IMG/VR virus record: IMGVR_UViG_3300021091_000225
Location: 1-34,470 of that record
Reading direction: 5' to 3' (one strand)
DNA from: a virus
Length of the DNA stretch: 34,470 bases
Shown here: in pieces, positions 5,666-34,470 of the stretch
Layout of the letters: the number at the start of each line of letters is the position of its first letter
Position numbering within the stretch: position 1 is the stretch's first letter
The notes under the pieces: generated by a model
What the model was told of the DNA's origin: nothing
Seen by the model: only the letters and a program-made list of their open reading frames with translations
Database searches by the model: none
Translations under genes and position numbers: made by a program

Positions 5666-6058
5666 ATGGCGCAAATTTCTAAAAAATTTGTTGATCTTAA
5701 CCCAACATTAACACGTAATCCAATCACTGGCGATGTGGCGACACTAAAGAATGAGGATGCCATTAGACAATCAATCAAAAATATTGTTACTACAGCTAAA
5801 TTTGAAAGACCATTCTTACCATTTTTTGGTTCAAATGCATCTTTAACACTATTTGAGAATTTTGATGGCACCACAAATGCCACAATAGAGGCAGCATTGT
5901 CAGATGCAATAAGAGCATATGAACCAAGGGTCGAAATAGTGACTATAAAAGTCAATTCTAGTATTGATTCTAATTCAATAGCTATAGATATTAATTATAG
6001 CATAATTGGAATTCCTTTAGATATTCAATCACTTAACCTCGTATTAGAAAGAGTATAA
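5666..6058 (+). CDS. 25: Baseplate wedge subunit gp25 (GPW/gp25 family), 130 aa
   Basis: gp25 joins the inner baseplate wedge and contacts the sheath; it is the most conserved wedge protein of contractile tails. Evidence: the length of 130 aa matches the family (T4 gp25 is 132 aa). The N-terminus has FVDLNPTLTRNPITGDVAT followed by NEDAIRQSIKNIVTTAKFER, and the hallmark YEPRV occurs near residue 91 before a strand-rich end (EIVTIKVNS, ININ-like YSIIGIPLDIQSL). The Shine-Dalgarno AAGGAAGG lies 4 nt before ATG. The stop overlaps the next gene's ATG by one base (TAATG), as expected for two proteins that assemble together. Confidence 0.92.
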   Translation: MAQISKKFVDLNPTLTRNPITGDVATLKNEDAIRQSIKNIVTTAKFERPFLPFFGSNASLTLFENFDGTTNATIEAALSDAIRAYEPRVEIVTIKVNSSIDSNSIAIDINYSIIGIPLDIQSLNLVLERV

Positions 6059-13900: not shown

Positions 13901-16900
13901 TTTAGAAGCATTCTCTAGCACTGTTGGATCAGTTAAATCTATTGCTAATGCATCAAATGGTTATGGATATAGTCCAAATCCATCGTATTCACCTGTTATT
14001 TCTTTTCCAATAATAGCTAAGTTAAAAAATAATTATAAAGTTGTTTCGTATAGAATTGATGATCCAGGAGATGGATATTTATTTTCAAACAGTCCAGTTA
14101 TTAAAGGTGGAGGATTAGGAGATGGAGATACTCAACATGCATCCTTGATAGTAAATGTAAATAATGAAAAAGTAATTTCAGTAGATATAATTTATCCTGG
14201 AGTTTCGTATTCATCAGCACCTACTATAGATGTCGAAAAAACATATTTTACAACAATCAATAGTAATGGTGATTTGTCATTTAAATTTGATTTTACTGAT
14301 TATTTCCAAGAAAATGATTCTTATAAAGTAAGAGCATATTACTTAGATACAAATTCCAATTTAAAATATCAAGAATCGACTGTAACATTTTTTGCAGATT
14401 TACAAACAGCATCGATTAAATCAAAATTAACTTTAGCATCACAAACTTATGTTAATCCATTAGATTATATCTCTGTGCCAACAAACGCACAAGTACAATA
14501 TTATAAAGTTTTATTGAATGAAAGAAAAGCATCAATAACTTTAATTATTGATAAATCTGATTTCTTTGCAAATGAAAAAGTTATTATCAATGATAACCCA
14601 AATACTTTTGGATATGTGTCAACTATAAAAGGATGGCAAAAAAATAATTCAATATTAAGAATAACTGGATTGCAATATGAATTAAAAGTAAATGATATTA
14701 TAAGAGGAGTTAATTCTGAATCATATGGTAAAATAGATTTTGTTGATGGGGTTAATACATCATTAAAACTTGGAGCATATTTAGAACAACCAAAACTTTT
14801 CTTAAGTCAAAATTCATTCCTTGGCGAAAATATTTTTAAATTACAAGATAGTTTTAGATATCAAAAATTTGCTTATGAGATATCATCCAATGTCCCCGTA
14901 GATAAATGGAGAGAAAATTATATTTCAACCGCTCATCCAGCAGGATATAATTTATTTGCAAAAACTAAAATCAATCAACGTGCAAAATTACCAGTTACAT
15001 CAGAAACAAAAGTAACAATATCTACTGATGTATCTTCTATTGTGAGATTGAATCAAAAATATAATTATCTGATTACAAAAAATATCTCAGTTGATGAAGT
15101 TCAGGTTGCTAATAAACTATTAACTGATGTAAAAAATATTAAAACTTCTGTAGTTGCAGCATTTGAGGATTTTTCTAATGAGTTTAATGGTATAAAAACA
15201 TCATTTGAATTAAAGGTCATTGACCCAATTCAACCAAAAAATGATGACGGAGTAACTGATAAGTATATTACCAATTATAGTATTGATCAAATGCTTGTAA
15301 TTTTGGATAATATTGTTCAAACTTACGGAGATTCTTGGACTGTAACTGATGCTGATAAAACTTTTAGTTTTGAATCTGTAGAAAATGCAGGACAATTGAT
15401 GCCAGGTGGTGATGTTCTTTTTTATCGTCAATTAAATGAAGCAAATGTAATCTATGGTTTTAATGAAATTACAACTTCTGCATCTACAACGTTCCCATTA
15501 ATTCAACAAAATGGATCTGCATTCCCATCAGCAGTTGTTGGATCTAATTACAATGCCAGCGATTGGTTAGTTTTTGTAGATGGTGTCCTTCAATCAAGTT
15601 CAGATTCATATACATTGTCTGCTGGCAATTTAGTGTTCAGTGAAAGTATTCCCGCTGGTTCTCAAATATCAGCAAGATGTATAGTTGGTTCTCATAGAAA
15701 TCAGTTTACAAATGGATCTGTAACTAGTGGAAATGCAATTTCAATTGCTTCAAAACCAGTAACTGTATCAAAAGAAAGTTATTTTATATTTGTAGATGGT
15801 ATATTGATTAAAACTTCTGATTATAGTTTAAATTCATCAAACAATGTAATTTTTAACTATTCATTTAATTATGACTCGTTGGTTGTTTATATTGATCCAA
15901 AATTAGTTTCTTTAGAAACATCATCTCATAATATTCTTAGCGAATTGTATAATTATAAAATTGAAGATGGTCAAACTGATATCCCAGTTGGTTTAGTAAT
16001 TGATTCAAATCAATATATTCTTGATATTAATGGTGTAGTTCAAACTCCATTTGTTTCATACCTTGCTGGATCTAGTGGTATTAGAAAAATTAATTTTACT
16101 GAACCACCTCAAAAATATTTTAAAGGTGATATTGAAGTTGGAAGACAATTCGTAGGTCTTTTATATCAAAGACAAGATGTTTCTGGAGCATTGGGTTCCA
16201 CTCCAAATTATCAATTTGATGATATATCTAAAAATAGAATTTTTATAAAAAATAATGTTTCTAATTTAATTGTTGGCGATTATATTGTATCCCCAACTAA
16301 TGGATCTAATGCTATTGTTGATAATATTATTGATAAGCAAATCAGAAAAACAGTAATTCAATCTGTTAGTTCTACTGTTGTTGCTCCAAATAATACCATA
16401 ACAATTAATTTAAATAGCGTTCTTGGAATTTCTGTTGGGGATAGAGTTGTCTTTGATCCTGCAATAGGATTAACTTCTGTTGATGGAAATGAATTAGAAA
16501 TTACTTCTATAAACAAAATAAATTCAACAGTAACTTTAAGAAATATTAGTACATCTTCTCTCACTATAACATTACCCTTAAATAATTCAATTAGATTTAA
16601 TCATAGAGAATTAGTTGTTGTCAAAATTAATACTACTCAGGTCAATCGAGATAATGCGTTTAGTAGCGGTACAACTTTATTAAGTGGATATGTGTCTTCT
16701 TCAGAAACATCAACACAAACAACTCTCGATGAATCATATATGGTATTATCTTCCGATACCACAATTAATGTTGTAAGTTCAAGTGGATTTGCTAATGATG
16801 ATTATATTTTAGTTAATGATGTTGAAGTTATGAAAATTACTAATATTTCATCTAATGTTTTAACAGTTTTAAGAGGACAACTTGCATCAATTATTCCAAA

Positions 16901-18308
16901 TGTACATTCAAATGGATCAAATGTAACGAAAATTACTCCAGTTTCATTGGAATGTAGTGGATTTGCACGAGGATTTGATTCAAATAAAACAAGATTCCCA
17001 TTATTGAAGGATGGAAATTCAGTTTACATTGAAGCAAATAAAGACATTTTTGTTATTGTTAACGGCATTCTTCAAAAAAGAGGATCATCATATACAATTA
17101 TTGAAAATAATCCAAACAATACTTCAAATGATGGAGATGAGTATTCAGAAATTCAATTTAATGAACCACCAACAGATAGTACCCCATTTAATTGTTTCTA
17201 TGTTGGAGAAACTATTTCAATTCAAAATATATCTTCTCAATTTAATTCAATTAAAACTAATTTTGATTTAAGAAGTGTTACTGGAGAAATTTTTAGTTTA
17301 ATCTCAAATAATAGACCAGAAGCAAATATATCTGCTAATTTAATTTTATTCATAGATGGAGTTTATCAAATTCCATCTACAACAGAATCTGGTCGTTTAG
17401 AAGCATATAGTGATTCACTAAGTTCTTATAAATTATTAGGAAGTATTATTGATTTCAATTCTCCTCCAAAAAGAGGATCAGATTTTGAAGGATATATTTT
17501 TGTTGGATCACAATCTGATTATAATACAATTGATATTGATGTCGCGGTTGAACCAAATGATATTCTTTTACAATATAATGAAGTATCACCTAGAAGAATC
17601 CTTCAAAAAACTAGTGCTACTAAATTATCTGTAACTGAATCATTTGGAGTTTTATATGAAGCGTCAAATGGAATTGAATTGGGATCTGATAGGGGAAATA
17701 ATTGGTGGAAAACTGATTTAATCAAATCAGCTAGAGTTAGAGAATCATTAAGATCAAGAAGAACAATAAATTCAAGTATATTCCAAATCGGTACGCCATC
17801 TCCATATCCATTAACTGGTAAAACATTATTTACTACATCAATACCAAGTATAAAAATAAATAATGTTTCTTCTGATTTTCCAACATCTCCTGATGATGAT
17901 ACAAATAAAATATCTTTTATAATTCCAGCAGGAACAAATTTCCCAAAAAGAATGGTTGATTTTACTTATGTTTCTTTTGTTCCTAGAAATCAATTGATTG
18001 TTGGTAGTAAAGATGAATTGCAAAATTTAAAAATTGTAGATTTACCATTTAATCAAATATTAAAAGTTAGTGGATCTGCTTCTGATTTAAGTACTTATTA
18101 TTTTGGTGGCAATGCAAATACTAGTGAATTTACTGTTGTAAATTTTGATATAATTGATAAAATTATATACATCAAATTAACTGACACTGCGAAACCAGTT
18201 ACTACAGCAAACTGGACTAATTTTCTTGGATATACATTAACTGCTGATAATTTAATTAATGAATATCAAACATTAACAGTTGGCACAAATTTAATATATA
18301 ACTTCTAA
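7905..18308 (+). CDS. Giant baseplate-associated structural protein at the gp7 position, 3467 aa
   Basis: The gene occupies the place of T4 gp7 (between gp6 and gp8), but T4 gp7 has about 1030 residues. The N-terminus NQFPVFYQDQYPTLVKFLQ, then YYEFLESNGNPIDLI, is the form seen in cyanophage proteins at this place; about the first 330 residues look conserved. Then follow Gly-Tyr beta repeats (about 515-760), a sandwich region, a YHYH-like domain (about 1200-1345) with GWSLDGSPIYGPYGY at 1224-1238, four 'IDDE'-type modules (near 85, 310, 1540 and 2940), and seven 'VDGVLQ' modules (near 1661, 2464, 2556, 2629, 2706, 3050 and 3149). It probably builds the wedge with peripheral fibre-like extensions. 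No transmembrane segment or enzyme site is seen. Whether it is a true gp7 homologue is unproven. Confidence 0.75.
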   Translation: MFNQSVVSSSVQNQFPVFYQDQYPTLVKFLQSYYEFLESNGNPIDLINGLLDITDIDTYAEIDLKASTKEPISITDTEISVIGHVKFPRTDGLLKIDDEVILYKEREYITDEFNVYKITVFKGCIRGYTYNELTYEDGFVPNIKTEPAKHIASSIVLNQSFNYLLYFLDKLRQQFLVNYPQNSLIENKDKLNFNLILKRIKDFYLSKGTPKGIEFYFKYLFQNVPEITNYKSQLLAPSDAIYQTKFIVRTESLDNYYIPDLVDKILVQNGKEFNVQTVENNFAASSQVYELEVSNGQNIVATQFAIITQYIINNRLYVDTTFGFPEVGFLRIGDDLVKYSRKEYNYFELEEIPSFYSIGQRIYDLSTLASVKDRPDSYFLIFSGVVGYDILKNYTYYQEGDIGFVKDVSINISNLLLTSWVTNENIPVNLNKNLVAGVASLYTDQEAVYLYSSGIPYYSFSTPSNVKVEDAEHFIKIPLIYTKSLEGFKEKTTPDAPVGFLVDGTPILNWKSNVVITRGSLKTVTVTDGGSDYNVSSPPVITFTAPKISGGTTALGNLVVNGSIKEIYVESFGKGYPATTIITVDKDPTDTEFNSKFRSAVLEPVVVKGKITRVKVIDPGYGYSKQPTLRISPNFFNDANASTEEAVLSCLVAGPIHRVNITNPGSKYNDNPSILTTFGEGATAILTIESGVITEITPVNNGQSYKSPPIVKIVDSTGKGQGAKIISKINTVTGAVIEYKILNGGINYSQFGTSIQIFESGSESLLNPIVDNWTLLNNYNTDNDPNYDSSTGGLLFGTEVLQNIETIIPKFEEVPYQQNTSVTQNGLTSVTYEGVTYSANVPVVDLVNEVGFDLVDDGYLQLKVPFDIRFGTTSNTPTLVKKGENLFVSTNGFIFFNENNPLALEGWAAEQLTPTSLGASIQIGKDDLIIDRFFDSYVERSNTVTVDIIASVFGAENTNNWPSPNTSALYFNGLPTRSFTTQPFNTLNGGFFKFDLIYSAPPNTIGNSPEVNEPVQLQYSKNNGATWTPFSMYSIDTYGGGSWKPITVRLEGPLLDPFIRFKLIQPNYTRTSAGLDTWGLDNVEMRLNTANQVSDLYVLRYEGFHFVRGFNRTNPIKFEIIFEENVSGQIIDNKFRINIIENNPLPSDLKTLLLTYGENNSYEFDPVPVESGKSYQYSSTIIPASDKVFPKKYTIIGAPKQLKLKKSLVNVNLTDSTKHSPIIGWSLDGSPIYGPYGYQNPLEESTIKKMVSGWKKIETNLNPIRLLPSANGGLQNYAIGSFEEDYYWSPSQATLDRQNGRYCITPEFPNGVYAYFMTVDLNNKQLGFPYFVGSEFSGKTYSEFNLSEIPLLNQIFNLSRYLDPATDVYKKTRPLDPGSFIVESIPSSTEASVQSINIVDGGSGYKIGDKLIFNNTETSGFGAAGFVSVIEGKDIVSTTFTEYDYLEYYDESTPFSNGSTIKTADGFSAVIHSVNQNDRYAYLKNVTGNNPSSGEPIFDSTLTPEVLISNELTGTNATVAVINGLETKCTLDSDIDSATTYLSIFGFTNCTIDDFFSLTINKYIKIDDEYMLVKYKASSDKILVERGINSIQTPHADGSTVTLLSELPVFDSSKFNIGDIIKVDEEIFKVVNITVTKTIQNLFTKIKDGSGTTGANTYYLFINGILQLNSSAQVPAQGTVVLNANGDVSDLVFDQPPNQTGITVNGSIMSNPRIELLTSQTYIKANIVSNIDIIGSNFKHILTVERQSFNTVRSLHYPRSIVTKLRYINAKVKSYQENRILSRFTSNGNGLVQGDQITVNASRKLENNYNVNFTINPVNFTITKGSETYTNGSTLEMYERSKYIFNVQSVEPITVQFFSFSTELDKQKEYFDIDNTIELDGSGKITKFTIVPKSSDLTNVIMRITLQSQGIYRDVKLNIRFEPYNGEFYVENSTSNYFEFYIDRNPLFTDYNSNTINYITTSKVANGPIHKATLTSGGFDYKILPSVTGFVTANGVGATLEAFSSTVGSVKSIANASNGYGYSPNPSYSPVISFPIIAKLKNNYKVVSYRIDDPGDGYLFSNSPVIKGGGLGDGDTQHASLIVNVNNEKVISVDIIYPGVSYSSAPTIDVEKTYFTTINSNGDLSFKFDFTDYFQENDSYKVRAYYLDTNSNLKYQESTVTFFADLQTASIKSKLTLASQTYVNPLDYISVPTNAQVQYYKVLLNERKASITLIIDKSDFFANEKVIINDNPNTFGYVSTIKGWQKNNSILRITGLQYELKVNDIIRGVNSESYGKIDFVDGVNTSLKLGAYLEQPKLFLSQNSFLGENIFKLQDSFRYQKFAYEISSNVPVDKWRENYISTAHPAGYNLFAKTKINQRAKLPVTSETKVTISTDVSSIVRLNQKYNYLITKNISVDEVQVANKLLTDVKNIKTSVVAAFEDFSNEFNGIKTSFELKVIDPIQPKNDDGVTDKYITNYSIDQMLVILDNIVQTYGDSWTVTDADKTFSFESVENAGQLMPGGDVLFYRQLNEANVIYGFNEITTSASTTFPLIQQNGSAFPSAVVGSNYNASDWLVFVDGVLQSSSDSYTLSAGNLVFSESIPAGSQISARCIVGSHRNQFTNGSVTSGNAISIASKPVTVSKESYFIFVDGILIKTSDYSLNSSNNVIFNYSFNYDSLVVYIDPKLVSLETSSHNILSELYNYKIEDGQTDIPVGLVIDSNQYILDINGVVQTPFVSYLAGSSGIRKINFTEPPQKYFKGDIEVGRQFVGLLYQRQDVSGALGSTPNYQFDDISKNRIFIKNNVSNLIVGDYIVSPTNGSNAIVDNIIDKQIRKTVIQSVSSTVVAPNNTITINLNSVLGISVGDRVVFDPAIGLTSVDGNELEITSINKINSTVTLRNISTSSLTITLPLNNSIRFNHRELVVVKINTTQVNRDNAFSSGTTLLSGYVSSSETSTQTTLDESYMVLSSDTTINVVSSSGFANDDYILVNDVEVMKITNISSNVLTVLRGQLASIIPNVHSNGSNVTKITPVSLECSGFARGFDSNKTRFPLLKDGNSVYIEANKDIFVIVNGILQKRGSSYTIIENNPNNTSNDGDEYSEIQFNEPPTDSTPFNCFYVGETISIQNISSQFNSIKTNFDLRSVTGEIFSLISNNRPEANISANLILFIDGVYQIPSTTESGRLEAYSDSLSSYKLLGSIIDFNSPPKRGSDFEGYIFVGSQSDYNTIDIDVAVEPNDILLQYNEVSPRRILQKTSATKLSVTESFGVLYEASNGIELGSDRGNNWWKTDLIKSARVRESLRSRRTINSSIFQIGTPSPYPLTGKTLFTTSIPSIKINNVSSDFPTSPDDDTNKISFIIPAGTNFPKRMVDFTYVSFVPRNQLIVGSKDELQNLKIVDLPFNQILKVSGSASDLSTYYFGGNANTSEFTVVNFDIIDKIIYIKLTDTAKPVTTANWTNFLGYTLTADNLINEYQTLTVGTNLIYNF

Positions 18309-18340: not shown

Positions 18341-19771
18341 ATGGCAGCAATTTTAACGGATAAATTTAGAGTAATATTTGCTGAAAAATTTAAAGAAGCA
18401 ATTGAGGTTGGTGAGAATCAAACTCTTACTGCATTAGGTGTACCAAGTACTACAATTTGGTTATTTTTTGCAAAATCCGTTGCTTGGATTGATGGAGTTG
18501 TTTTAGATCCAACAGATAATCAGCAAGATTCATTTAGATTATATGATCAAATAATAGGTCTTAAAAAGATTCCTTCTGCTGAAATAAGACAGGTTATTAG
18601 AAATAATAAATGGATAGAAGGAACAATTTATGATATTTACCGAGATGATTATGGTAAACTATTAACTTCTGCTGGAACTACAAATACTTATGTTCAAGGT
18701 TTAAATTTTGAACAACATTTATATGAAACAAACTATTATGTGGTGACATCAGAATATAAAGTGTATAAGTGTTTATCTAATAATAAAAATTCTCCTTCTA
18801 CAGTACAACCATCTTCAGTAAGTGCTGCTCCATTCACATTATCTGACGGGTATCTGTGGAAATACATGTTTACTGTCAATGCTAATGATTTTGAAAAATT
18901 CAAAACTGATGAATATATTCCAATTCCAATTTCAATTCCAGTAAGTAACCAATTACCAGCGTCTGCAAATTTTGGAGGTTCCATTTATAATGTAGTTATT
19001 GAATCTGCAGGAACAGGATATACTGCCAATTCAGAATATGATATTGTTGGTGATGGTACTGGCGGAAAAGTAAAAATCACTTCAGTTTCTCAATCTGGAG
19101 CAATAACATCGGTATTAGTAATTAATCCAGGGAGTGCATATACATATGGACAAATTAATTTAGGAAGTGGAGGAGGATCATTAATTCCAATTATTTCACC
19201 AAAAGAAGGTACGGCAGTATCAATTGGTAGAGAACTTGGTGCATACCGAATTGCACTTCACGCAAAATTAGATAAAGATGATTTTGTTTTTGGTAATGAT
19301 TTTAGTATTGTTGGAGTATTGTATAATCCTATTGTCACTACTTCAGGAACTGATGTTGCTATTGGCACAAAACAATTAGTTTTGGCATCTGCTTTAAATG
19401 GCACAATAGAATATAATGATTTACAAATACGTGTTACTGCACACTCATCTGGAGCATTAGGGGTAACAGAAACTGCTGCTACTGGAAGAATTGTTCATTA
19501 TGAAAATACTACCAAAACCATATATTTCACTCAAGAAAATGAAGTTGGTTTTGGAATGGCTTCTAATGGTACAAGAGCATCCTTCTTACCTGGCGATACC
19601 ATTAGTATTGGTGCAGATCAAGAAACTGCTACTATTGCGGCAGGAAATACTTCAGTAAAATCCTCTGGACTATCTAGAGGATCTGGAGAAATCATCTACA
19701 TAGATAATAGGAGTACGATCTCCAGAGCAAAGGATCAAACAGAAGATTTTAAAATTATCTTAGAGTTCTAA
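18341..19771 (+). CDS. 8: Baseplate wedge protein gp8-like, 476 aa
   Basis: gp8 binds gp7 and gp10 in each baseplate wedge. The N-terminus MAAILTDKFRVIFAEKFKEA is characteristic of cyanophage gp8. The core YVVTSEYKVYKCLSNN, then PSTVQPSS, then SDGYLWKYMFTV (168-179) resembles T4 gp8 (YKCI...DGYKWKFMY). It is longer than T4 gp8 (334 aa) because of an added C-terminal beta part with the repeats IESAGTGYTANSEYDIVG and VLVINPGSAYTYG (about 215-275), which also occur in the neighbouring proteins. The end (SRGSGEIIYIDNRSTISRA, DFKIILEF) closes the domain. A perfect late promoter precedes it; the next gene begins one base after the stop. Confidence 0.85.
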   Translation: MAAILTDKFRVIFAEKFKEAIEVGENQTLTALGVPSTTIWLFFAKSVAWIDGVVLDPTDNQQDSFRLYDQIIGLKKIPSAEIRQVIRNNKWIEGTIYDIYRDDYGKLLTSAGTTNTYVQGLNFEQHLYETNYYVVTSEYKVYKCLSNNKNSPSTVQPSSVSAAPFTLSDGYLWKYMFTVNANDFEKFKTDEYIPIPISIPVSNQLPASANFGGSIYNVVIESAGTGYTANSEYDIVGDGTGGKVKITSVSQSGAITSVLVINPGSAYTYGQINLGSGGGSLIPIISPKEGTAVSIGRELGAYRIALHAKLDKDDFVFGNDFSIVGVLYNPIVTTSGTDVAIGTKQLVLASALNGTIEYNDLQIRVTAHSSGALGVTETAATGRIVHYENTTKTIYFTQENEVGFGMASNGTRASFLPGDTISIGADQETATIAAGNTSVKSSGLSRGSGEIIYIDNRSTISRAKDQTEDFKIILEF

Positions 19772-19772
19772 C

Positions 19773-22700
19773 ATGCCCCAGTCAACTAATCTGAACACTC
19801 CTCCATATTTTGAGGATTTTGATGCAAAGAAAAAATTTCATAAAGTATTGTTTAGACCTGGATATCCTCTTCAGGCTAGAGAGTTAACAACAATACAATC
19901 AATACTTCAAAATCAAATTGAAAATTTTGGTTCTAGCATCTATAAAGAAGGTGCTATGGTTGTTCCTGGTCAAATTGGATATGACCTTACTTACTATGCA
20001 ATTTTAATTGAAGAAGAGTATTTTGGAATTTCTGCTGATATTCTTTCTCAATATATTGTAGGACAGACAATTGTTGGAAATACTTCTGGTATTCGTGCTA
20101 AAGTTGTCAATGCTTTAACATCTGATCAGTCAGAAAAAGGATTTACAACGTTATATGTAAAGTATTTGAGTGCAAGCACTACTAATACAAATGGAACCTT
20201 TGGTAATGATGAAATATTAATTGCAGAAAATTCATTTAGCATTGGCAATACTGTAATTCAAAAAAATACTGATTTCGCAAAGTGTATTAGTTTAAATCCA
20301 ACTTCTATTGGATCTGCCGCAAAAATAACAAGCGGAATATATTATACAAAAGGGTATTTTGTTAATGTTGAAGAGCAAGAAATAATCTTAGATCAATTTG
20401 GAACTACACCATCATATAAGGTTGGTTTACAAATATTAGAAGAGATTGTAACCCCAGAGGATGACATTTCTCTTACTGATCCATCACAAGGATATTCAAA
20501 TTATTCTGCGCCAGGGGCACATAGATTTAAGTTAACAGCGATTTTAACTAAAAAAAGTTTAGATGATACTTCTGTTACTGATTTTATTGAACTTCTCAGA
20601 TTAGAAAAGGGGTATGTTAAAGAAATAGTATCTTCATCCAGAGCACAGTTAGCAAAAACATTAGAAGATACATTTGCAAGAAGAACTTATGATGAATCTG
20701 GAGATTATGAAGTTCGTCCATACGATTTTTCAAAAGACGAATGCTTCAATGATGGTATTAATAATGGTATCTTTTCATCAATTAATAGTACAGATGATGG
20801 AAATACTCCATCCAAAGATTTATTTGAAATAAATGTATCTCCTGGTAAATCTTATGTTAGAGGATATGAATTAGAAACATTAGCAACTACTTATGTTGAT
20901 ATTAAAAAACCAAGAGCAACTGAATTACTTGGAAATGCAACTATTAGAACAGATGCTAGATCTATAGAATTTAGAATCAGCAACTCTTCTAATAATAATC
21001 ACATAACATATTCTCAACTTACTTCATCATTAAATTCTATTGTACCGTTATTAGATACTAATGATGCTGTAATAGGATATGCAATAATGCTATCCTATGA
21101 ACAAGTCGATAGTGGATCATCAGATTATATAATTATTAGATTAGCAAATATAAGATTTATATCAACTTCATATAATTTATCTTCTATTAAAAAGATAAGA
21201 TTTGCGGGAACAATTACTTATACAACTACGCCAAATACATCAACTGGTGGAGTCATAAAAACAATTGATAAAATTAGTGGAGCATTTAACCCATTATTTT
21301 TTCCAGTTTATGAAACAAGTGTAATTAAATCTTTAACTGATACTAAAGTACAAGATGTTTTTACAAAATATATTGGTTCAACAGGATCTACAACTACAAT
21401 AACAATTAGTGGTAGAAGTTATTATTCAAAAAATGCAGCAGATTACACATTAAGAATTAATGGAGATGCTGGAACTACAGAAAGAACAATTAGCAATCTT
21501 GCAATCGATGGTAGTGGTACTTTAACTTTTGTTTTTAGTGGATCTGCTGTTTCTTCTGGAACTGCATACATATTAATTGGTCCAGAGAAAATTAACGTCC
21601 CAAGTATAAAATTAGCATCTCTCAAAAAAATGAGAGCATTGAGATTAGCAAATATTGCTAACAAATATAATGTAAATGATACTACAATTTCTTTAGGAAC
21701 AACTAGAGTATCCAAAATTCATGCAATTTACAATACTTCGTCTGGTACATTAACCGAATCAATTCTTCCCAAAATTACATTAAATGCTGGTGCTGGAGTA
21801 TTTAAAATTGGTGAAGTAATTGTTGGAAAATCAAGTGGGGCTAAAGGTAGAATTATAAAGCAAGATGTAAATGCAATTTATTTTACTTATATTAGTCAGA
21901 CAAATTTTGCTATAAATGAAGATATTTTTGGATATTTAAGTTCATCAACTGGCACTATTTCTGTAATTAATAATAATGGATTGCCTGATATAAAATCTCG
22001 CTATATGTTAGATGATGGTCAAAGAGATCAGACATTTGAATTTTCAACTTTAACAAAAGTATCTTCAGATAGCGTTATTTCTGGAGATCTTGTTGTTATC
22101 ATGGATCATTTCAAAGATCAAGTAACATCAGGTCAATTCTATACGGTAAATTCATATTATGATGCTGATATTGATGAAATTCCATCATATAATTATGATG
22201 GAAATAGAGTATATTTAAATGATCTAATTGATTGGAGAATCAATCAATTAGATACTTATGTCAGTACAACATCAGGCGAATATAATGCACCATATACAAT
22301 TAATGCTAATGAAATTTTAGCGAATACTAATTTATTATCATATGGAAACACTAACTATATCACTTCAGAATACCTTTTTCCATCTGGAACAACTGATGGC
22401 GATATAGAATACTATCTTGGTAGAATTGATGATTTATATCTTGATAAAAATGGCAAATTCCTTTCTCAAAAAGGAGTAGCAGCATTAAAACCAAAACCCC
22501 CAACAGATTCATTAGCTAATGCTATGAAAGTGTTGTCCATATCAATGCCTCCTTATGTTAGGAGTTTGGATGATGTTATTATAAGAAGATATAATAACAA
22601 AAGATATACAATGCGAGATATTGGCAATTTAGAAAAACGCCTTGATAATGTAGAATATTATACTCAACTTAGTTTGCTGGAAACAGATACAGCTAATTTG

Positions 22701-25700
22701 TTTATAGAAGATTCAAATGGAAATAATCGATTAAAAAATGGATTTTTAGTTGATAATTTTACTTCTCATTCAATAGGACAATCTGATCATCCAAATTATA
22801 AATGTGCTATTGATAGTGCTCTTGGGGAATTGCGCCCACCTCATTATACTACCAATGTTGCATTGAAGTATCAAGAAACACCTACAAAATATATTAAAGG
22901 TGATTTTATTATGCTTGATTATACTGATAAATTATTAATTGAGCAAAATTATGCAGCAGTTGTGGAAAATGTTAACCCATTTGCTGTTAGTTCCTGGGTT
23001 GGTCTTGCTTTTGTATTTCCAGCATCAGATGATTGGATTGATGAAAATAGATTACCAGAATCACTAACAGAAGTTGAGGGTGATTATTCTGCTACTGTCT
23101 TTGCAATGGGTGTTGATAGGAATACAGGTTTTGCTCCTATTGAATGGAATGCTTGGAAAACTCAATGGTCATCAACTTCTGTAACAACCCAAACGTGGAC
23201 AGAAGGTGGAGGTCCAATAAGAAACGTTGAACAAACAACAACTAGAACAGATAGATTCCAAACTAGATCTGGAATTAGACCTAGAGTTACCCCAAAAACA
23301 GAGAGAAAAGTTCTTGGAGATAGAGTAGTAGATACTAAATACGCATATTGGAAGAGATCTAGAAATATTTCAGTGACTTCATTTAGATTGAAACCAAATA
23401 TTAGAGTATATGCATTTTTTGATGGTAGAGATGTTACATCTTTTGTAACTCCAAAAATTTTAGAAATTGCTATGGCAGCATCTTCCGTTGCATTCCAAAT
23501 TGATGAAGATATTATCGTAACTGGCAATGTAAATAGAAAATTTAGAGCAAAACTTGTTGCTCCAGGATCTGGTATTGATAATTTGGGTCGTCCATACACA
23601 GTAAATCCATATAATGGTGAAACAATTACTGCAACTTCCTACACATCAACATCTACATTTTTAAATCTTGACATTCCATCAATGCAAGTATTAAATACAT
23701 CTGAAATGGGTGGATATGTACTTGAGGGAGATACCATTGTTGGATTAACAAGTGGTGCTACAGCAACAGTCATCAATAAAAAATTGATTGCCGATGAATT
23801 AGGCAACGTGCAATTAAGTTTTTACATTCCAGATCCAAATGATGATGCAAATCCAAGATTTAAAGTTGGGGAATCAGTATTCAGGGTATCTGATAGTCCA
23901 ATCAATTCATTAATACCTGGAGTTGTTGACAGCTCTGCAGAAGCATCTTATACTGCAAGTGGAACAATTCTTACAAAACAACAAGATACATTATTAGTTA
24001 GAAATGCAGAGGTTGTTAGAGATACTGTAAGTGATAGTAGAATGTTAACTAGTTCGTCAACTTCCACTAGAGTTGGAGGTTGGTATGACCCTCTTGCACA
24101 ATCATTCTTGATAGAAGAAAGTGGTGGATGTTTTATTACAAAAATTGATGTATACTTTAGCACAAAAGATTCTAATCTTCCAGTAACTATGCAGATTAGA
24201 GAGATGGTTAATGGGTATCCATCTCCAGAGATTTTAGGCACAATCAATAAAGATCCAAGTAATGTCTCTGTTTCTGCAGATGCAAGTGCTGTGACTACTT
24301 TTGTTTTTGATACTCCAATTTATCTTGCAGAAAGAAAAGAATATTGTTTTGCACTATTAACATCTTCAGTTGAATATAGAGTTTGGCTTTCTGAAATGGG
24401 TAAAGATGACTTAAGTGGAGAAAAAATATCTAAACAACCATATGCTGGTGTTCTTTTCAAATCACAGAATGCATCTACATGGACAACATCAGAAATGCAA
24501 GATTTTAAATTTAAGATTTATAGAGCATCATTTAATATTAATGAATCACCTACTATCAATTGGGTGAACGATAATAGCGGATCACTTCAATATACTCAAT
24601 TGAGAAGAGATCCAATTGAATTAAATGTAAATTCAAATAGAATAAAAGTAAATCACACTAATCATGGTATGCATGATCCTGCATCATTTGTAGACATTAC
24701 TGGAGTAAGTTCTGAACAGTATGCAACTTTATCTGTAAATTGGAGTGGTGCTCCAGGCGCAATTACAGTAAACGGCAATAGAACAGCATTCTATTATACT
24801 TCAAATATTAATGGAAGTCCTCCAACAAATACAAATCCTGGTTATTTAAAAATTGGTGGAGTTGTATATAGTTACAATCCAACTACAGTTGGAACTGCGG
24901 ATACAAATGGAAATTATACAATCACAACACTTGCAAGAATTTCTGGAACTGCTCCATCTGATGGATTTAAAGCAGATGAAGAATGGCAGGTCGAAAATTA
25001 TGTAATCGATGGAGTTCCATTAACATTGATTAATACGATTCACAGCAATTTAGAATGGATAACACTTGATAGTTATCAAATTAATCTACCAATAACTAGA
25101 ACATCAGCAACTAATTTAACGATTGGTGGAGATAAAGTATTTGTAAGTCAGAACATACAGTATACTCAATTTGAACCTCTTGTTACATATAAAGAATTAC
25201 CAGGAACTTCAATTTTGGCTTCATACTCTGGTACTACTGGTACTTCTATTGGTTCGTCTTCTTATTCAAATCCTTCCACATATACTTCACCTAATCAAAA
25301 ATCTTATATTAGAGATTCTGACTTCTTTCCAATAGTTTTAAATGAGAATAATTTACTTTCTGTTCCATATTTGATTGCTTCAAACTTAAATGAAGAAAAA
25401 CAAATGATTGGTGCAAAATCAGCAACCATGCGATTGGTTCTTTCTAGTACTAAGGAAAATTTAAGTCCTATTATTGATAAAAATAGAGTTAGTTTAGTGA
25501 CTACTAACAATAGAGTTACTGATTTTGATTCAACAGAATTTAAAAAACAATATTTCTTTAATTCTCCACCATCTCCCAATGACACTTTTAATATTGCAAT
25601 TGATCCAATTCATGATTACAATGCAGCAAACTATATTACAAAAATAGCAACTCTTGCAAATCCATGTACAGGGTTGAGAATTGAATTTGCTTCTTATAAT

Positions 25701-25961
25701 CCTTCTGTTTGTGATGTTGATGTTTATGTTAAGTTACTAACTGGTGATGAAAGTGATTACAATCAAATACCTTGGGAAAAACTAACAACAGCAAATTATA
25801 ATAAAAAGGATGAACTTAGATTTATTGATCTTTCTTATAATTATAACACTGCAAATGCAAACGAAACATTTAGTAAATATACAATCAAATTAAGAATGAG
25901 ATCTCGTAATGCTGCCGTTGCTCCGATTATTAAAGATTTAAGATGTATAGCTCTAGCTTAA
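19773..25961 (+). CDS. DUF4815-type tail/baseplate protein, gp10-like position, 2062 aa
   Basis: The N-terminal part fits DUF4815, a domain of cyanophage tail proteins: STNLNTPPYFEDFDAKKKFH, LFRPGYPLQARELTTIQSIL, then the YTKGYFVNVEEQEIILD and INVSPGKSYVRGYELETLA strands. Around residues 937-960, RRYNNKRYTMRDIGNLEKRL begins a helical stretch, probably the trimer-forming coiled coil. Near 1439 the motif DPLAQSFLIEESGGCFITKI starts a C-terminal domain (DVYFSTKDSNLPVTMQIREM) seen in the same family. In cyanophage annotations such proteins are called structural protein, gp10 or tail fibre; which T4 part it matches is uncertain. It overlaps the following small gene by 19 bases. Confidence 0.8.
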   Translation: MPQSTNLNTPPYFEDFDAKKKFHKVLFRPGYPLQARELTTIQSILQNQIENFGSSIYKEGAMVVPGQIGYDLTYYAILIEEEYFGISADILSQYIVGQTIVGNTSGIRAKVVNALTSDQSEKGFTTLYVKYLSASTTNTNGTFGNDEILIAENSFSIGNTVIQKNTDFAKCISLNPTSIGSAAKITSGIYYTKGYFVNVEEQEIILDQFGTTPSYKVGLQILEEIVTPEDDISLTDPSQGYSNYSAPGAHRFKLTAILTKKSLDDTSVTDFIELLRLEKGYVKEIVSSSRAQLAKTLEDTFARRTYDESGDYEVRPYDFSKDECFNDGINNGIFSSINSTDDGNTPSKDLFEINVSPGKSYVRGYELETLATTYVDIKKPRATELLGNATIRTDARSIEFRISNSSNNNHITYSQLTSSLNSIVPLLDTNDAVIGYAIMLSYEQVDSGSSDYIIIRLANIRFISTSYNLSSIKKIRFAGTITYTTTPNTSTGGVIKTIDKISGAFNPLFFPVYETSVIKSLTDTKVQDVFTKYIGSTGSTTTITISGRSYYSKNAADYTLRINGDAGTTERTISNLAIDGSGTLTFVFSGSAVSSGTAYILIGPEKINVPSIKLASLKKMRALRLANIANKYNVNDTTISLGTTRVSKIHAIYNTSSGTLTESILPKITLNAGAGVFKIGEVIVGKSSGAKGRIIKQDVNAIYFTYISQTNFAINEDIFGYLSSSTGTISVINNNGLPDIKSRYMLDDGQRDQTFEFSTLTKVSSDSVISGDLVVIMDHFKDQVTSGQFYTVNSYYDADIDEIPSYNYDGNRVYLNDLIDWRINQLDTYVSTTSGEYNAPYTINANEILANTNLLSYGNTNYITSEYLFPSGTTDGDIEYYLGRIDDLYLDKNGKFLSQKGVAALKPKPPTDSLANAMKVLSISMPPYVRSLDDVIIRRYNNKRYTMRDIGNLEKRLDNVEYYTQLSLLETDTANLFIEDSNGNNRLKNGFLVDNFTSHSIGQSDHPNYKCAIDSALGELRPPHYTTNVALKYQETPTKYIKGDFIMLDYTDKLLIEQNYAAVVENVNPFAVSSWVGLAFVFPASDDWIDENRLPESLTEVEGDYSATVFAMGVDRNTGFAPIEWNAWKTQWSSTSVTTQTWTEGGGPIRNVEQTTTRTDRFQTRSGIRPRVTPKTERKVLGDRVVDTKYAYWKRSRNISVTSFRLKPNIRVYAFFDGRDVTSFVTPKILEIAMAASSVAFQIDEDIIVTGNVNRKFRAKLVAPGSGIDNLGRPYTVNPYNGETITATSYTSTSTFLNLDIPSMQVLNTSEMGGYVLEGDTIVGLTSGATATVINKKLIADELGNVQLSFYIPDPNDDANPRFKVGESVFRVSDSPINSLIPGVVDSSAEASYTASGTILTKQQDTLLVRNAEVVRDTVSDSRMLTSSSTSTRVGGWYDPLAQSFLIEESGGCFITKIDVYFSTKDSNLPVTMQIREMVNGYPSPEILGTINKDPSNVSVSADASAVTTFVFDTPIYLAERKEYCFALLTSSVEYRVWLSEMGKDDLSGEKISKQPYAGVLFKSQNASTWTTSEMQDFKFKIYRASFNINESPTINWVNDNSGSLQYTQLRRDPIELNVNSNRIKVNHTNHGMHDPASFVDITGVSSEQYATLSVNWSGAPGAITVNGNRTAFYYTSNINGSPPTNTNPGYLKIGGVVYSYNPTTVGTADTNGNYTITTLARISGTAPSDGFKADEEWQVENYVIDGVPLTLINTIHSNLEWITLDSYQINLPITRTSATNLTIGGDKVFVSQNIQYTQFEPLVTYKELPGTSILASYSGTTGTSIGSSSYSNPSTYTSPNQKSYIRDSDFFPIVLNENNLLSVPYLIASNLNEEKQMIGAKSATMRLVLSSTKENLSPIIDKNRVSLVTTNNRVTDFDSTEFKKQYFFNSPPSPNDTFNIAIDPIHDYNAANYITKIATLANPCTGLRIEFASYNPSVCDVDVYVKLLTGDESDYNQIPWEKLTTANYNKKDELRFIDLSYNYNTANANETFSKYTIKLRMRSRNAAVAPIIKDLRCIALA

Positions 25962-28997: not shown

Positions 28998-29213
28998 ATG
29001 AATGAAATAGATGTTAATGTTTTGATTTCAATCCTTCAAAAAAAGGTTTCTGACTTGACCCTTACTAATGTAGTATTAGAAGCAAAAGTTAAAGATTTGA
29101 CAAATAGGTTAAATAGTATTATAGAAAAGTCACAACAAGAGAATGCTATAAATGGCAACCAGAATCAAGTTAAAGAGATCCCTAACACCGAACTCAGCAC
29201 CGACGACTTCTGA
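28998..29213 (+). CDS. Small coiled-coil protein, 71 aa
   Basis: The start is 8 bases after the previous stop, with GAGG overlapping that stop as ribosome site. The protein is nearly all helical: EIDVNVLISILQKKVSDLTL, NVVLEAKVKDLTNRLNSIIE, with regular Leu/Val/Ile spacing typical of a two- or three-stranded coiled coil. A polar tail with NGNQNQ and TELSTDDF follows. I do not recognise a named family, but short coiled-coil genes between fibre genes of T4-like phages often act as fibre chaperones or connectors. Its last 62 bases overlap the start of the large fibre gene in another frame. Confidence 0.7.
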   Translation: MNEIDVNVLISILQKKVSDLTLTNVVLEAKVKDLTNRLNSIIEKSQQENAINGNQNQVKEIPNTELSTDDF

Positions 29214-32200
29214 TCTTTACGACAAAGAAGTAGCTCTTAATATTGCTGATAGGACATTATTTGTAAATAATAATGGTACTATTCAAGAAGTTCTAAACGC
29301 AGATCCAAACGATGAAACCATTGTTCCATCAATGTTTTCATCTTTGATTACTGATGGAGTCGGAAAAACTTGGTATGTTTCAAAAAATGGAACAGACAAA
29401 GCAATACTTGGTTCTGTAAATCCTAGACACGGTTCTACTACTGGTTCAAATTCATGGGGCAAAACGCCAATGACGGCGTTTTCCTCATTAAAATATTGTC
29501 TTGATAATTATGCTACTGATGGGGATACTGTCATTGTGGGTTCAGGAGTTTATACTGAAACTTTTCCATTAACAGTTCCAGTTGGAGTTTCAATTACTGG
29601 TGCTGGATTCAAAACCACTTTTATTAAACCAACAGTTGGTACTAATAATAAAGATGCGTTTTTAATTCAAAGTAACTGTAATATAGAAAATATTACAGTT
29701 ACTGATTTTTATTATGATTCAGTAAATGATACTGGATATGCATTTAGAACAAAATCTGGATATACTATAAGTGTTTCAGGAAGAAGACCTTATGTTCAGC
29801 GTTGTTCTGTAATTACTAAAGGTAGTGTAACCACTGGATCCGATCCAAGAGGATATGCACAGGGAGATGCAGGAAGAGGCGTATTAATTGATGGTGGAGT
29901 AGTTGCAACTAATTCAGCAGAAGCATCTATATTATTTAATGAATGTACATTTGTTGTACCTAATTCAGTTGGATTATATTTAAAAAATGGTGCTAGATGT
30001 GAATGGTTAAATTCATTTACTTATTTTGCTGCAGATAGCGTTATTGGAGAAAATCCAGGCGGAACAGGATTTGCTGGTCAGGGAAGAGCAAGATTAAAAT
30101 TCAATGGTATGTCTGGCACATTTGCTGCTGGTAATACTATAACTCAATATGATACTGACGGTACAACTGTTTTAGCATCTGGTACTATTAATCAAAATGA
30201 TGGTACATATATTTACCTTACTGGTCAAGGAACAGGTAATTTTGTTGAGGCGTTACAATCATCATTAACTCCAAAGCAGGTAATTGTTAATGGTGATGCT
30301 CAAATTAGTACTGCTATTAAAAAATTTGGTAATAGTTCTTTAATATTAGATGGAACTGGAGATTACTTATCAGTAGCAAGTTCTTCTGATTTTAACTTTG
30401 GAGCTGCAAGTAATCCTAGTCCACCAGCAAGCACAACGTATACGTATACTGTAACTGCAAACACTGGTAGTACAAATAATTACCAATTTTCTGGAAGTGC
30501 AAGTGGAACTGCTCCAACTCTCAACGTAGTTGCAGGAGATATATTAGTATTTAATGTAAACGTTAGCGCCAGTCATCCATTTTGGGTTAAGACAGCACAA
30601 ATCACAGGCACTGGTGGTGGTGTAGGTAACGGAACAACAACAGGCACAATAACAAATAATGGATCTACAACGGGAACAATTACTTGGAATACAGCTGGAG
30701 TAACACCTGGCACTTATTATTACCAGTGTCAAAATCACACAAATATGTTTGGTGTGATTAATGTAGCAGCTGGTACAACAACTACTAGTGCAACTGGAGA
30801 TTTTGCATTAGAGTGCTGGGTATATCCTACTGAGTTTACTTCATATAGAACTATCTTTGACTTTAGAACTACCACTAGTGATACTAATGGAATTATCTTA
30901 GGTCAGAGTGACACTGGTGCGATATACTTCTATTATAATAGTAATTATAGAGTTGGACCTGTTGGATCGGTTACTCTTAATGCTTGGAACCATGTTGCTT
31001 TAACCAGATCAGGATCATCAACAAGATTATTCATCAATGGAACTCAAGTTGGATCAACTTATACTGATACAAACAATTATCCTGTACGTCCAGTTAGAAT
31101 TGGTGCAGATCCTAATGGTGCATATGCTTATAAGGGATATATTGATGAAGTAAGAATTTCAAAAGGAGTATCTAGATATACTGGAACTTTTACTCCTTCA
31201 ACAACGGCATTTACTGCTAGTATCAATACCTCTCTTCTTCTTCAATTTGAAGGATTGAATGGAAGTACTGAAATTATTGATGGAGGTATTGCATCACAAG
31301 ATATTAGAACTTCTGCTGGTGGAACTGCTAATTTTGTAACTTTGGCAGATTACACTGCATTTGGTGCAGAACTTCGTTCAATTGGATCAGCTTCAATTTA
31401 TGGAGAAAGAGGTCTTACTGCAAACGGAAAGGGAGTAAGATTATATTGTATTACTCATAATTTTAGTTATATTGGTACTGGTAAAAATGAAGATAATGAT
31501 ATTAGTCAGGTTAATCAGGCAAATGAAGTAATTGAAACTAATAATGGTCGTGCATTGTTCACAAGCGTTGACCAAAATGGTGATTTTAGAGTAGGAACAA
31601 CATTTATTATAGATCAAGAAAAAGGAACAGTATCTTTTGCTGGATCTGGATCTAGTACAACAACATTTGATAATTTAATTGTTTCAAGTGCAGGGAATGC
31701 TACTACGATTTTACCAACTTCAATTAATGTTGGTAATTTAACACTTTCTTCAAATCAAATAATATCAGGAACTGGGTTAGTACAAACTTCTCCTCTTAGT
31801 ATTGGAAACATTAGAATTGGTTCTGTAAATGCAAATACAATTAGCACTTCTACTGGAAATTTAGTATTAACTGCTCAGGGAAATAGCTTAGTACAAGTAA
31901 ATGATGATTTACAAATTACTGGCAATACTAATTTTACAGGTGACATAACTGTAGGTGGAAATATTGTATCAAATCAAAGTATTTCTATTGATAGTTCTAA
32001 TATTAGTAATGCTACTATTGGAACACTTACAGTAAATACATCTACAACCACAGGATCTTCCAAATTTTATGATGATATCACAACATATTCTGGAGAATTT
32101 GCTGGTATTATTACTGATGGATTAGGATATCCAGCAGGAACTTATACAAATGTTGATTTAACTGGTGGTAATGGATCTGGAGCAAAAGCGACTATTGTAG

Positions 32201-34470
32201 TTACTGGTGGTGGTATTTCTGGTGGATCAATATCAAATGCTGGAAGTGGTTACATACCTGGAACATATACTGTTCAATTAGCAAATGTATCTGGTACTGG
32301 AACTGGTGCTGTAGCAACAATAACTACAAGTATTACGACTCAAACTGTATCTAGTGTAGTTATAACATCATTTGGACAAGGGTATCAAGTTGGTAATGTA
32401 TTAACTGGTACATTTGGAAGTGGTAGTGGATTTACTTATACTGTATCTTCTGTCGATTCAGCAGTAACATCAGTAACAATAACTGATTTTGGTACAAGTA
32501 AATATGATATAAATGATATTCTTAGTGCTGCAGAGTCAAATTTTGGTACTGGACCATTTAATAATTTCTTAAAATATAAAATAACTTCTTTCTTAGAACA
32601 TGTAAAAATTCAATCTTTTGAAACTAAAGCGACATTTAGTGGAAATTTAGAATCAAAAGATACAACTTGGTTAGCTAGTGAAAAGCAAAACGCATTTGTT
32701 GCTATTGGTTTTCCATCAAATTTAGATCTTGGTGATCCATTAAACATCTATGATACTGAAAAATTAGAAGTAAACGGCAATATTAGAGCACAAGGAGATA
32801 TAAAAGCACTTAATAATATTGTTGCATCATTTGGATCAGTAACTGAACCATCTATAAAGTTTGATGCAGATCCACATTCTACATTGTGGAATAGAACAGG
32901 ATTTTTTGCAGAGTATGGAGAAGGTCATGGCAAATTTAGTGCTGTTGGAGATCAAGGAAGAATATTAAGATTTTCTGCAGATAGAACAGATTTTTATAAA
33001 AAAACAAATTTTGTAACTGTATCTTTTGCTGATCCAACAATACAAAAAGGTTCAGCATATCAATTAGGAAAATATACAAATCAAGAAGTTTTAGGTGGAA
33101 GTGGAAGTGGATTAAGATTTGATGTTACTGTTGCATTTGATGGTATTCTTACTGAACAAGGTTTTGGATATACTGATGCAACTTATGTAGATATTCCTTT
33201 AATTTATTCTGTTCTTCCAGGTGGTTCAGTATTAACTACTTCTAATTTAAATGGTGGATCAAATTATATCAATGGAACATACACAAATGTCCCATTGACT
33301 GGTGGAACTGGAAATTTTGCTAAAGCAACAGTTACTATTGCTTCTGGTTCTGTAACAAATATATCAATAACAAATGGTGGATCTGGATACACAGTAAATG
33401 ATACATTATCTGCAAATGTATCCAATTTAGGTGGATCACAAATTAATCAATTATCTATAACTTCTGGTGGATCAAATTATGCAAACGGTAATTATAATAA
33501 TGTAACTTTAACTAATATTGGTTCATTAGGTCAAGGAGCAACAGCAAATATTACTGTTTCTGGGGGTCTTATAACATCTGCAACTATAAACCAACCAGGA
33601 GCAGGATATGTATCAGGCGATACTTTATCAGTAGATACCACTAGTTTTAATAGTACTGCAACATACACGTATAATGTAACAGATACTTCTCCTTCTGGTT
33701 ATGTTTTTACTGGTTCTGCCACAGGAACAAATCCAACATTAACAGTAAATAAATTTGATGATTTGACTTTTGATGTAAGTGCTCCAGGAAATGGATTAGT
33801 AAATAATGCATTTTATATTGTATCTCAATTAGGTGCATATAGTGGATATGATCCGACCTATAATGTTGCAGGTGTTACGAATAATGGTGCTTCATCTGGA
33901 GTCATAACTTGGACACCTAATATTCCAGGTACATATTATTATATTTCAGCAAATAATTCTGCGTATTATGGTACAATACAAGTATTAGAAACCAACGTTG
34001 GTAGTGGTGCAACTTTAACAGTATCAACATTAACTAGTGGATCTGGATTTAATTTTAAAGTTGCTACAATTGGAACTTCCACTGGAGGAACTGGCGCAAA
34101 AGCAGACATTGAAGTTGTTGGTGGAAAAGTAACTTCAATTACAATAGTTGACGGCGGATCTGGATATCAGGTATTTGATCTACTCACGGTAGATCCCGCA
34201 AGTATGACATATGTTGATACAATAACTAATGCGGCAATACCATCAACAGTTCCAACTACTAGTTTTAAATTTAGAGTTGAAACTATTGGAGTAGTAACAG
34301 TAACTGAGATCAATAATTTAGGAATTGGATATGAAGAAGGAGATAAAATTTACCTTCCAAACTCATTTAGACCAGTTTATACAAATTGGACAGCAAATGC
34401 TCAAGTGCAATCTGGATCTTATGTAAAGCATCAATCTAATTTTTATGAAGTAACTGCCAGTGGTACTTTT
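29152..34470 (+). CDS. Large beta-helix tail fibre with LamG and cupredoxin-like domains (5' part, 1773 codons, cut by window end)
   Basis: The frame is open from ATG 29152 to the last base. The attachment start MATRIKLKRSLTPNSAPTTS, then EVALNIADRTLFVNNNGTIQ, is the cyanophage fibre form. A pectate-lyase-like beta helix follows (about 75-365: YVSKNGTD, DGDTVIVGSGVYTETFPLTV, GVSITGAGFKTT, RRPYVQRCSVITKG). A LamG domain begins near 380 (KKFGNSSLILDGTGDYLSV), is broken by a cupredoxin-like domain (about 429-538; H475, C526, H529, M532), and resumes at 549 (TGDFALECWVYP) to about 702. The helix ends with ASIYGERGLTANGKGVRLYC and TSVDQNGDFRVGTTF. Gly-Tyr repeats (about 984-1120, 1306-1500 and 1620-1730) and a second, ligand-less cupredoxin-like copy (about 1504-1613) follow. 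Probable receptor-binding fibre. Confidence 0.85.
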   Translation, partial: MATRIKLKRSLTPNSAPTTSDLYDKEVALNIADRTLFVNNNGTIQEVLNADPNDETIVPSMFSSLITDGVGKTWYVSKNGTDKAILGSVNPRHGSTTGSNSWGKTPMTAFSSLKYCLDNYATDGDTVIVGSGVYTETFPLTVPVGVSITGAGFKTTFIKPTVGTNNKDAFLIQSNCNIENITVTDFYYDSVNDTGYAFRTKSGYTISVSGRRPYVQRCSVITKGSVTTGSDPRGYAQGDAGRGVLIDGGVVATNSAEASILFNECTFVVPNSVGLYLKNGARCEWLNSFTYFAADSVIGENPGGTGFAGQGRARLKFNGMSGTFAAGNTITQYDTDGTTVLASGTINQNDGTYIYLTGQGTGNFVEALQSSLTPKQVIVNGDAQISTAIKKFGNSSLILDGTGDYLSVASSSDFNFGAASNPSPPASTTYTYTVTANTGSTNNYQFSGSASGTAPTLNVVAGDILVFNVNVSASHPFWVKTAQITGTGGGVGNGTTTGTITNNGSTTGTITWNTAGVTPGTYYYQCQNHTNMFGVINVAAGTTTTSATGDFALECWVYPTEFTSYRTIFDFRTTTSDTNGIILGQSDTGAIYFYYNSNYRVGPVGSVTLNAWNHVALTRSGSSTRLFINGTQVGSTYTDTNNYPVRPVRIGADPNGAYAYKGYIDEVRISKGVSRYTGTFTPSTTAFTASINTSLLLQFEGLNGSTEIIDGGIASQDIRTSAGGTANFVTLADYTAFGAELRSIGSASIYGERGLTANGKGVRLYCITHNFSYIGTGKNEDNDISQVNQANEVIETNNGRALFTSVDQNGDFRVGTTFIIDQEKGTVSFAGSGSSTTTFDNLIVSSAGNATTILPTSINVGNLTLSSNQIISGTGLVQTSPLSIGNIRIGSVNANTISTSTGNLVLTAQGNSLVQVNDDLQITGNTNFTGDITVGGNIVSNQSISIDSSNISNATIGTLTVNTSTTTGSSKFYDDITTYSGEFAGIITDGLGYPAGTYTNVDLTGGNGSGAKATIVVTGGGISGGSISNAGSGYIPGTYTVQLANVSGTGTGAVATITTSITTQTVSSVVITSFGQGYQVGNVLTGTFGSGSGFTYTVSSVDSAVTSVTITDFGTSKYDINDILSAAESNFGTGPFNNFLKYKITSFLEHVKIQSFETKATFSGNLESKDTTWLASEKQNAFVAIGFPSNLDLGDPLNIYDTEKLEVNGNIRAQGDIKALNNIVASFGSVTEPSIKFDADPHSTLWNRTGFFAEYGEGHGKFSAVGDQGRILRFSADRTDFYKKTNFVTVSFADPTIQKGSAYQLGKYTNQEVLGGSGSGLRFDVTVAFDGILTEQGFGYTDATYVDIPLIYSVLPGGSVLTTSNLNGGSNYINGTYTNVPLTGGTGNFAKATVTIASGSVTNISITNGGSGYTVNDTLSANVSNLGGSQINQLSITSGGSNYANGNYNNVTLTNIGSLGQGATANITVSGGLITSATINQPGAGYVSGDTLSVDTTSFNSTATYTYNVTDTSPSGYVFTGSATGTNPTLTVNKFDDLTFDVSAPGNGLVNNAFYIVSQLGAYSGYDPTYNVAGVTNNGASSGVITWTPNIPGTYYYISANNSAYYGTIQVLETNVGSGATLTVSTLTSGSGFNFKVATIGTSTGGTGAKADIEVVGGKVTSITIVDGGSGYQVFDLLTVDPASMTYVDTITNAAIPSTVPTTSFKFRVETIGVVTVTEINNLGIGYEEGDKIYLPNSFRPVYTNWTANAQVQSGSYVKHQSNFYEVTASGTF
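30289..31257 (+). other. Split LamG (ConA-like) domain with inserted cupredoxin-like domain
   Basis: The first LamG strands (KKFGNSSLILDGTGDYLSV) and the rest (TGDFALECWVYP, IFDFRTTTSDTNGIILG, WNHVALTRSGSSTRLFINGT, GYIDEVRISKGVSRYTG) are separated by 130 residues. The inserted part is a blue-copper-like sandwich with SHPFWV and CQNHTNM. Insertion falls in the loop where an uninterrupted LamG has only a few residues. Confidence 0.75.
33661..33990 (+). other. Second cupredoxin-like domain lacking copper ligands
   Basis: TYTYNVTDTSPSGYVFTGSA to TYYYISANNSAYYGTIQV aligns without gaps at its end with the first copy (TYYYQCQNHTNMFGVINV). Cys is replaced by S1599, His by N1602 and Met by Y1605, and the upstream His position is N1552. 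Confidence 0.7.

Follow-up and report, generated by a model that had tools for sequence, protein, structure and literature searches.

The baseplate region and its interrupted LamG domain

The window, the whole stretch of 34,470 nucleotides analysed here, is to judge from its genes the baseplate region of a T4-like phage. Its DNA resembles that of Synechococcus phages in similarity searches, and the source phage is a freshwater-type relative of cyanophages. The genes include those for a small baseplate wedge protein (5666-6058), a gp6-type protein (6058-7902), a giant wedge protein (7905-18308) and a gp8-type protein (18341-19771), after which come large structural proteins. A 2062-residue protein with DUF4815 (19773-25961) is flanked by the gp8-type gene and the fibre genes, and a small protein encoded at 4832-5137 matches the PHROG 'PAAR motif' family. 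The gene under study occupies positions 29152-34470 of the plus strand and encodes 1773 residues before running past the end of the window; in sister contigs the same frame stays open for 2240 codons. Its first 420 residues match PHROG baseplate wedge subunit families (E 1e-195), and this homology to annotated wedge subunits, together with the position of the gene after the gp6- and gp8-type genes, identifies the product as a T4-like baseplate wedge/fibre protein; a sequence search of the PDB with residues 1-379, which lie in the putative beta-helix ahead of LamG, returned nothing significant. The sister contigs, themselves fragments, gave no match to PF00124, a host photosystem marker, and neither a gp9 homologue nor a subtilase was found in the 75-kb sister contig, which is possibly incomplete.

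The protein carries a domain of the LamG/concanavalin-A-like, sugar-binding type, in two parts. The N-terminal part (30289-30400, plus strand; residues 380-416) is recognised by alignment with uninterrupted relatives. The remainder (30791-31257, plus strand) contains a Laminin_G_3 match (PF13385) at residues 541-671 that scores 83.7 bits against a cut-off of 27.6 (E 2e-23), and this score, along with the jelly-roll fold predicted by AF2 and Foldseek, places the domain in the LamG/Laminin_G_3 family. Between the two parts lies an insertion of 130 codons (390 bp; 30401-30790, plus strand), delimited with a 2-bp boundary ambiguity by an empty-site allele, in which GC content reaches 40.5%, against 34.0% for the whole gene. 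In uninterrupted relatives, the motif '..SSDFxFG' joins 'TGDFxxE..' directly, precisely where the window has its 130 extra codons, and in a 27-row alignment all of them are continuous across this position. Homologous fibres with an intact LamG, to which the initial annotation had pointed, account for 96 full-length, uninterrupted matches in the loci compared, while a split LamG occurs only in the window and in three contigs of the same species. A search across the junction brought up no additional example of nesting; one candidate, phrog_38322, was rejected, as it matches uninterrupted LamG domains too. Taken together, the empty-site allele, the alignment of relatives and the Pfam match confirm the earlier proposal that a cupredoxin-like domain is nested in LamG. 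This LamG differs from the LamG/Laminin_G_3 domains of other phage virion proteins in being interrupted by a complete second domain.

A predicted cupredoxin fold and its putative metal ligands

The inserted domain spans residues ~421-547, with a core at 30424-30768 on the plus strand (residues 425-539). A profile built from relatives, the window sequence included, matches the insert at E 7e-46, and the nearest independent relatives share 82% identity with it across the whole cupredoxin domain. Modelled alone by AF2 from a 17-sequence alignment, the domain reached a pLDDT of 82.9 and a pTM of 0.79 in the best of five models (range 39 to 83); its nine predicted strand elements agree with the Greek-key beta-sandwich of about eight strands that defines the cupredoxin fold. 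The best Foldseek matches in the PDB are rusticyanin, ascorbate oxidase, nitrite reductases, auracyanin and plastocyanins (probability ~1.00, query TM ~0.45-0.59), although the unrelated family SO1698 also scores among them. Compared with viral models, the domain comes closest to phage peptidase S8 proteins, gp9 connectors and proximal tail fibres (TM 0.73-0.80). The profile, the identity of the relatives and the AF2 and Foldseek results show that the ligand pattern did not simply arise by chance in an unrelated sequence.

The window copy has no match to the Pfam family PF00127 (Copper-bind) at E <= 1; 13 of 17 relatives do match it (best E 0.0012), the cut-off of 21.2 is just exceeded by the S-CAM4 copy with a score of 21.4, and models of plastocyanin and amicyanin match relatives marginally in profile searches. 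The window insert alone found only chance matches in a sequence search of the PDB, and profile matches to designed 'Cake' repeat proteins were rejected as spurious repeats. LamG and cupredoxin rows became mixed when aligned together with MAFFT, and a cleanly aligning set was used instead.

We also modelled the nested LamG and insert as a single 330-residue construct (AF2, five models). The best prediction has a pLDDT of 87.0 and a pTM of 0.65, all five models fall at 85-87, and Foldseek returns pentraxin/LamG folds. Since the nested model is confident and matches these folds, the two LamG halves appear to be packed together; that they might fail to do so was one of two outcomes named in advance as fatal to the nested reading, and in the models both halves instead form one confident LamG-type fold. 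The pTM of 0.65 leaves the orientation of the insert relative to LamG uncertain.

Four residues are predicted to bind metal: His475 in the motif SHPFWV (30574-30576, plus strand), and Cys526, His529 and Met532 in a C-x2-H-x2-M motif (30727-30747, plus strand), all of them conserved and all numbered exactly as in the initial annotation. The C-x2-H-x2-M spacing is that of amicyanin. This His, Cys, His and Met layout, in which the Cys closes the penultimate strand, is that of a type 1 (blue) copper site. In the model of the cupredoxin alone, a strand at 96-102 ends at C102, H105 and M108 lie in the following loop and the next and last strand runs from 109 to 115, while the residue corresponding to H475 is predicted immediately before a strand, as in blue copper proteins; the predicted ligands therefore occupy canonical strand and loop positions, and to that extent the other outcome named in advance as fatal, ligands lying far apart, did not arise. 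The fold, the ligand set and the position of the Cys are shared with small blue copper proteins such as amicyanin, plastocyanin and rusticyanin (PF00127), but these are free electron carriers, whereas the phage domain is a module in giant virion proteins.

The retention of the four ligands is evident across the family. They are invariant in the 17 aligned sequences and present together in 113 of 135 unique matches, the others being mostly fragments; in full-length copies they are conserved at 96-98%, among the top ten columns. Full-length copies in which the ligand-bearing search pattern is absent were counted separately as a check on bias, and 22 of these 25 keep all four, as do the copies in gp9, gp34-like proteins and subtilases from cultured cyanophages. 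From this conservation we infer a metal-binding site, copper being the likeliest metal.

The same protein contains a second cupredoxin-like copy (33652-33987, plus strand; residues ~1501-1611), absent from the earlier reading, in which the ligands are replaced by N1552, S1599, N1602 and Y1605. The matching copy in another locus (L204/L268) likewise lacks them, and these losses indicate that the fold is tolerated without metal. In a related gene of another phage (L205/L267), H, C and H are retained at the same place. An origin of the insert by duplication of this second copy within the gene was considered and rejected, as the cassette tree places the two apart.

A mobile cassette and its empty site

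The initial annotation treated the domain as a single oddity, a view that its distribution does not bear out: it is a mobile module found in many cyanophage virion proteins. At the DNA level, the insert is 86% identical over 381 of its 390 bp to a copy in a different, unrelated protein (L004), with a dN/dS of ~0.5 that is consistent with mild purifying selection, and 77.5% identical over 316 bp to the cassettes inside the subtilases of L005 and L006. In a tree of 113 columns that is weakly resolved overall, the window copy groups with those of L004, L005, L006 and L008 (SH-aLRT 93). The flanks of the cassette copies fall into 23 clusters upstream and 23 downstream, documenting shuffling from gene to gene. 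The closest well-sampled relatives are in cyanophage subtilase-like proteins (phrog_9158, Peptidase S8); in L005, L006 and L008 the cassette is nested in the protease domain, where it occupies a loop that precedes the conserved His motif, so that the host domain there is a protease, while in the window it is a lectin-like fold. Related domains also occur at the C-terminus of phage subtilases and in gp9, gp34-like and baseplate proteins. In cyanophage gp9, the baseplate wedge tail fibre connector (phrog_677) and a tail-fibre attachment protein, the C-terminal domain is cupredoxin-like with the H..C-x2-H-x2-M ligands intact (L281, 601-1827; L282, L284, L287). The domain is terminal and widespread in gp9, in contrast to its nested and apparently recently gained counterpart in the window. 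Relatives were found in 355 IMG/VR stretches and, with two different queries, in 162 and 349 phage records, the latter number being that of the records matched by the gp9 C-terminal domain. Related domains are also present in 23 MAG loci (L095-L117), mostly from marine Flavobacteriaceae and other Bacteroidetes, which possibly represent a cellular source pool.

The insertion itself is captured by an allele without it. Contig IMGVR_UViG_3300020179_000358 (L201/L273) carries the same gene minus exactly 390 bp (130 codons): it aligns with the window at 99.93% over 13,508 bp upstream and, after the 390-bp gap, at 100% over 442 bp. Compared with a filled sister contig (G002), it differs by only five SNPs in 13.5 kb, all of which fall in the fibre gene (window 29345-30396). 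Three of the five lie at most 117 bp from the insert junction (binomial P ~6e-6, computed post hoc), a clustering that suggests a recombination tract. Since the site is empty in all other relatives, parsimony favours a gain over a loss, and the insert is most simply read as recently acquired. On these alignments, the place of the cassette inside LamG is a strain-level insertion polymorphism. Insertion of one domain into another is usually inferred from distant relatives only; here, the presence of filled and empty alleles in near-identical phages opens the insertion event to direct study.

Possible roles of the displayed module

We favour, with moderate confidence, a reading in which this mobile cupredoxin cassette sits in a LamG loop, displayed toward the host, with a metal-binding site kept by selection. 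The cassette would have entered a surface loop of LamG in frame, in a baseplate/fibre protein of a T4-like cyanophage relative. Since LamG is predicted still to close around it, the cassette may be shown as an extra beta-sandwich on the host-facing apparatus, a position suggested by PHROG names and gene order. Its site would bind metal, most likely copper, and selection may retain the site because the metal stabilises the exposed module or joins in cell-surface binding; a role in stability or adhesion is thus the one we propose. In more general terms, the cassette is probably a movable, metal-binding display module of tail proteins, and its swapping would vary the surface that these proteins offer to the host.

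The main rival holds that the cassette serves only as inert structural filling or ornament, much as Ig-like domains do in other phages, and that its ligands are ancestral leftovers of little use. This reading has a real if minor claim: the second copy and its L204 counterpart kept the fold after losing all ligands, and the sister strain manages without the insert. However, few columns are as well conserved as the ligands when the domain is compared between unrelated host proteins, gp9 of cultured cyanophages among them, and at such distances drift should have removed C, H, H and M. A pure spacer, one of the uses considered in the initial annotation, is therefore disfavoured for the nested copy by ligand conservation, yet plausible for the second copy. 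Of that earlier interpretation, the nesting, the fold identity and the conserved ligands are upheld; we found nothing in favour of copper scavenging.

Two further readings give the predicted metal a more specific task. A redox-active type 1 copper centre could exchange electrons with, or oxidise, a component of the host surface during adsorption; the ligand set and spacing are the same as in amicyanin and the structural matches include rusticyanin, plastocyanin and nitrite reductases, but no partner, second copper site or linked redox gene was seen, and a virion has no obvious electron supply, which makes this improbable. Slightly more doubtful still is that copper or another metal borne on the tail mimics a nutrient recognised by a metal-uptake receptor of the host, after the Trojan-horse idea put forward for iron (PMC11705849). 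A predicted metal site that is conserved in the tail proteins of phages from aquatic habitats would suit such mimicry, and the Alteromonas phage R22Y tail fibre, with its proposed iron-binding HxH motifs, stands for a kindred idea, that the tails of marine phages bind metal (PMC11705849). Nevertheless, that proposal concerns another metal and another motif, with no cupredoxin described (PMC11705849), and nothing ties the present domain to a receptor. Finally, an assembly artefact or chimera is highly improbable: although limited to one species, the nested arrangement recurs without change in three IMG/VR contigs besides the window, which differ in sample number and as repeated assemblies already contradict an artefact, and the insert is in frame with boundaries that coincide with a domain.

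Cupredoxin and LamG are both known kinds of domain. In a search limited to a collection of open-access papers, we found no description of a cupredoxin, plastocyanin-like or blue copper domain in a phage virion or tail, and the nesting of one in the other in a virion protein of a phage, together with an allele in which the site is empty, appears to be new. It is tempting, if speculative, to extend the favoured reading to cyanophages and their relatives at large, which might bear working copper centres on the tail-fibre apparatus (gp9, proximal fibre, subtilase and baseplate adhesins); as cassettes inserted into loops, these would pass between proteins and alter the encounter between virion and host. 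That hundreds of cyanophages conserve the ligand set on gp9 and other tail proteins points to a testable metal requirement that has been overlooked in abundant aquatic phages.
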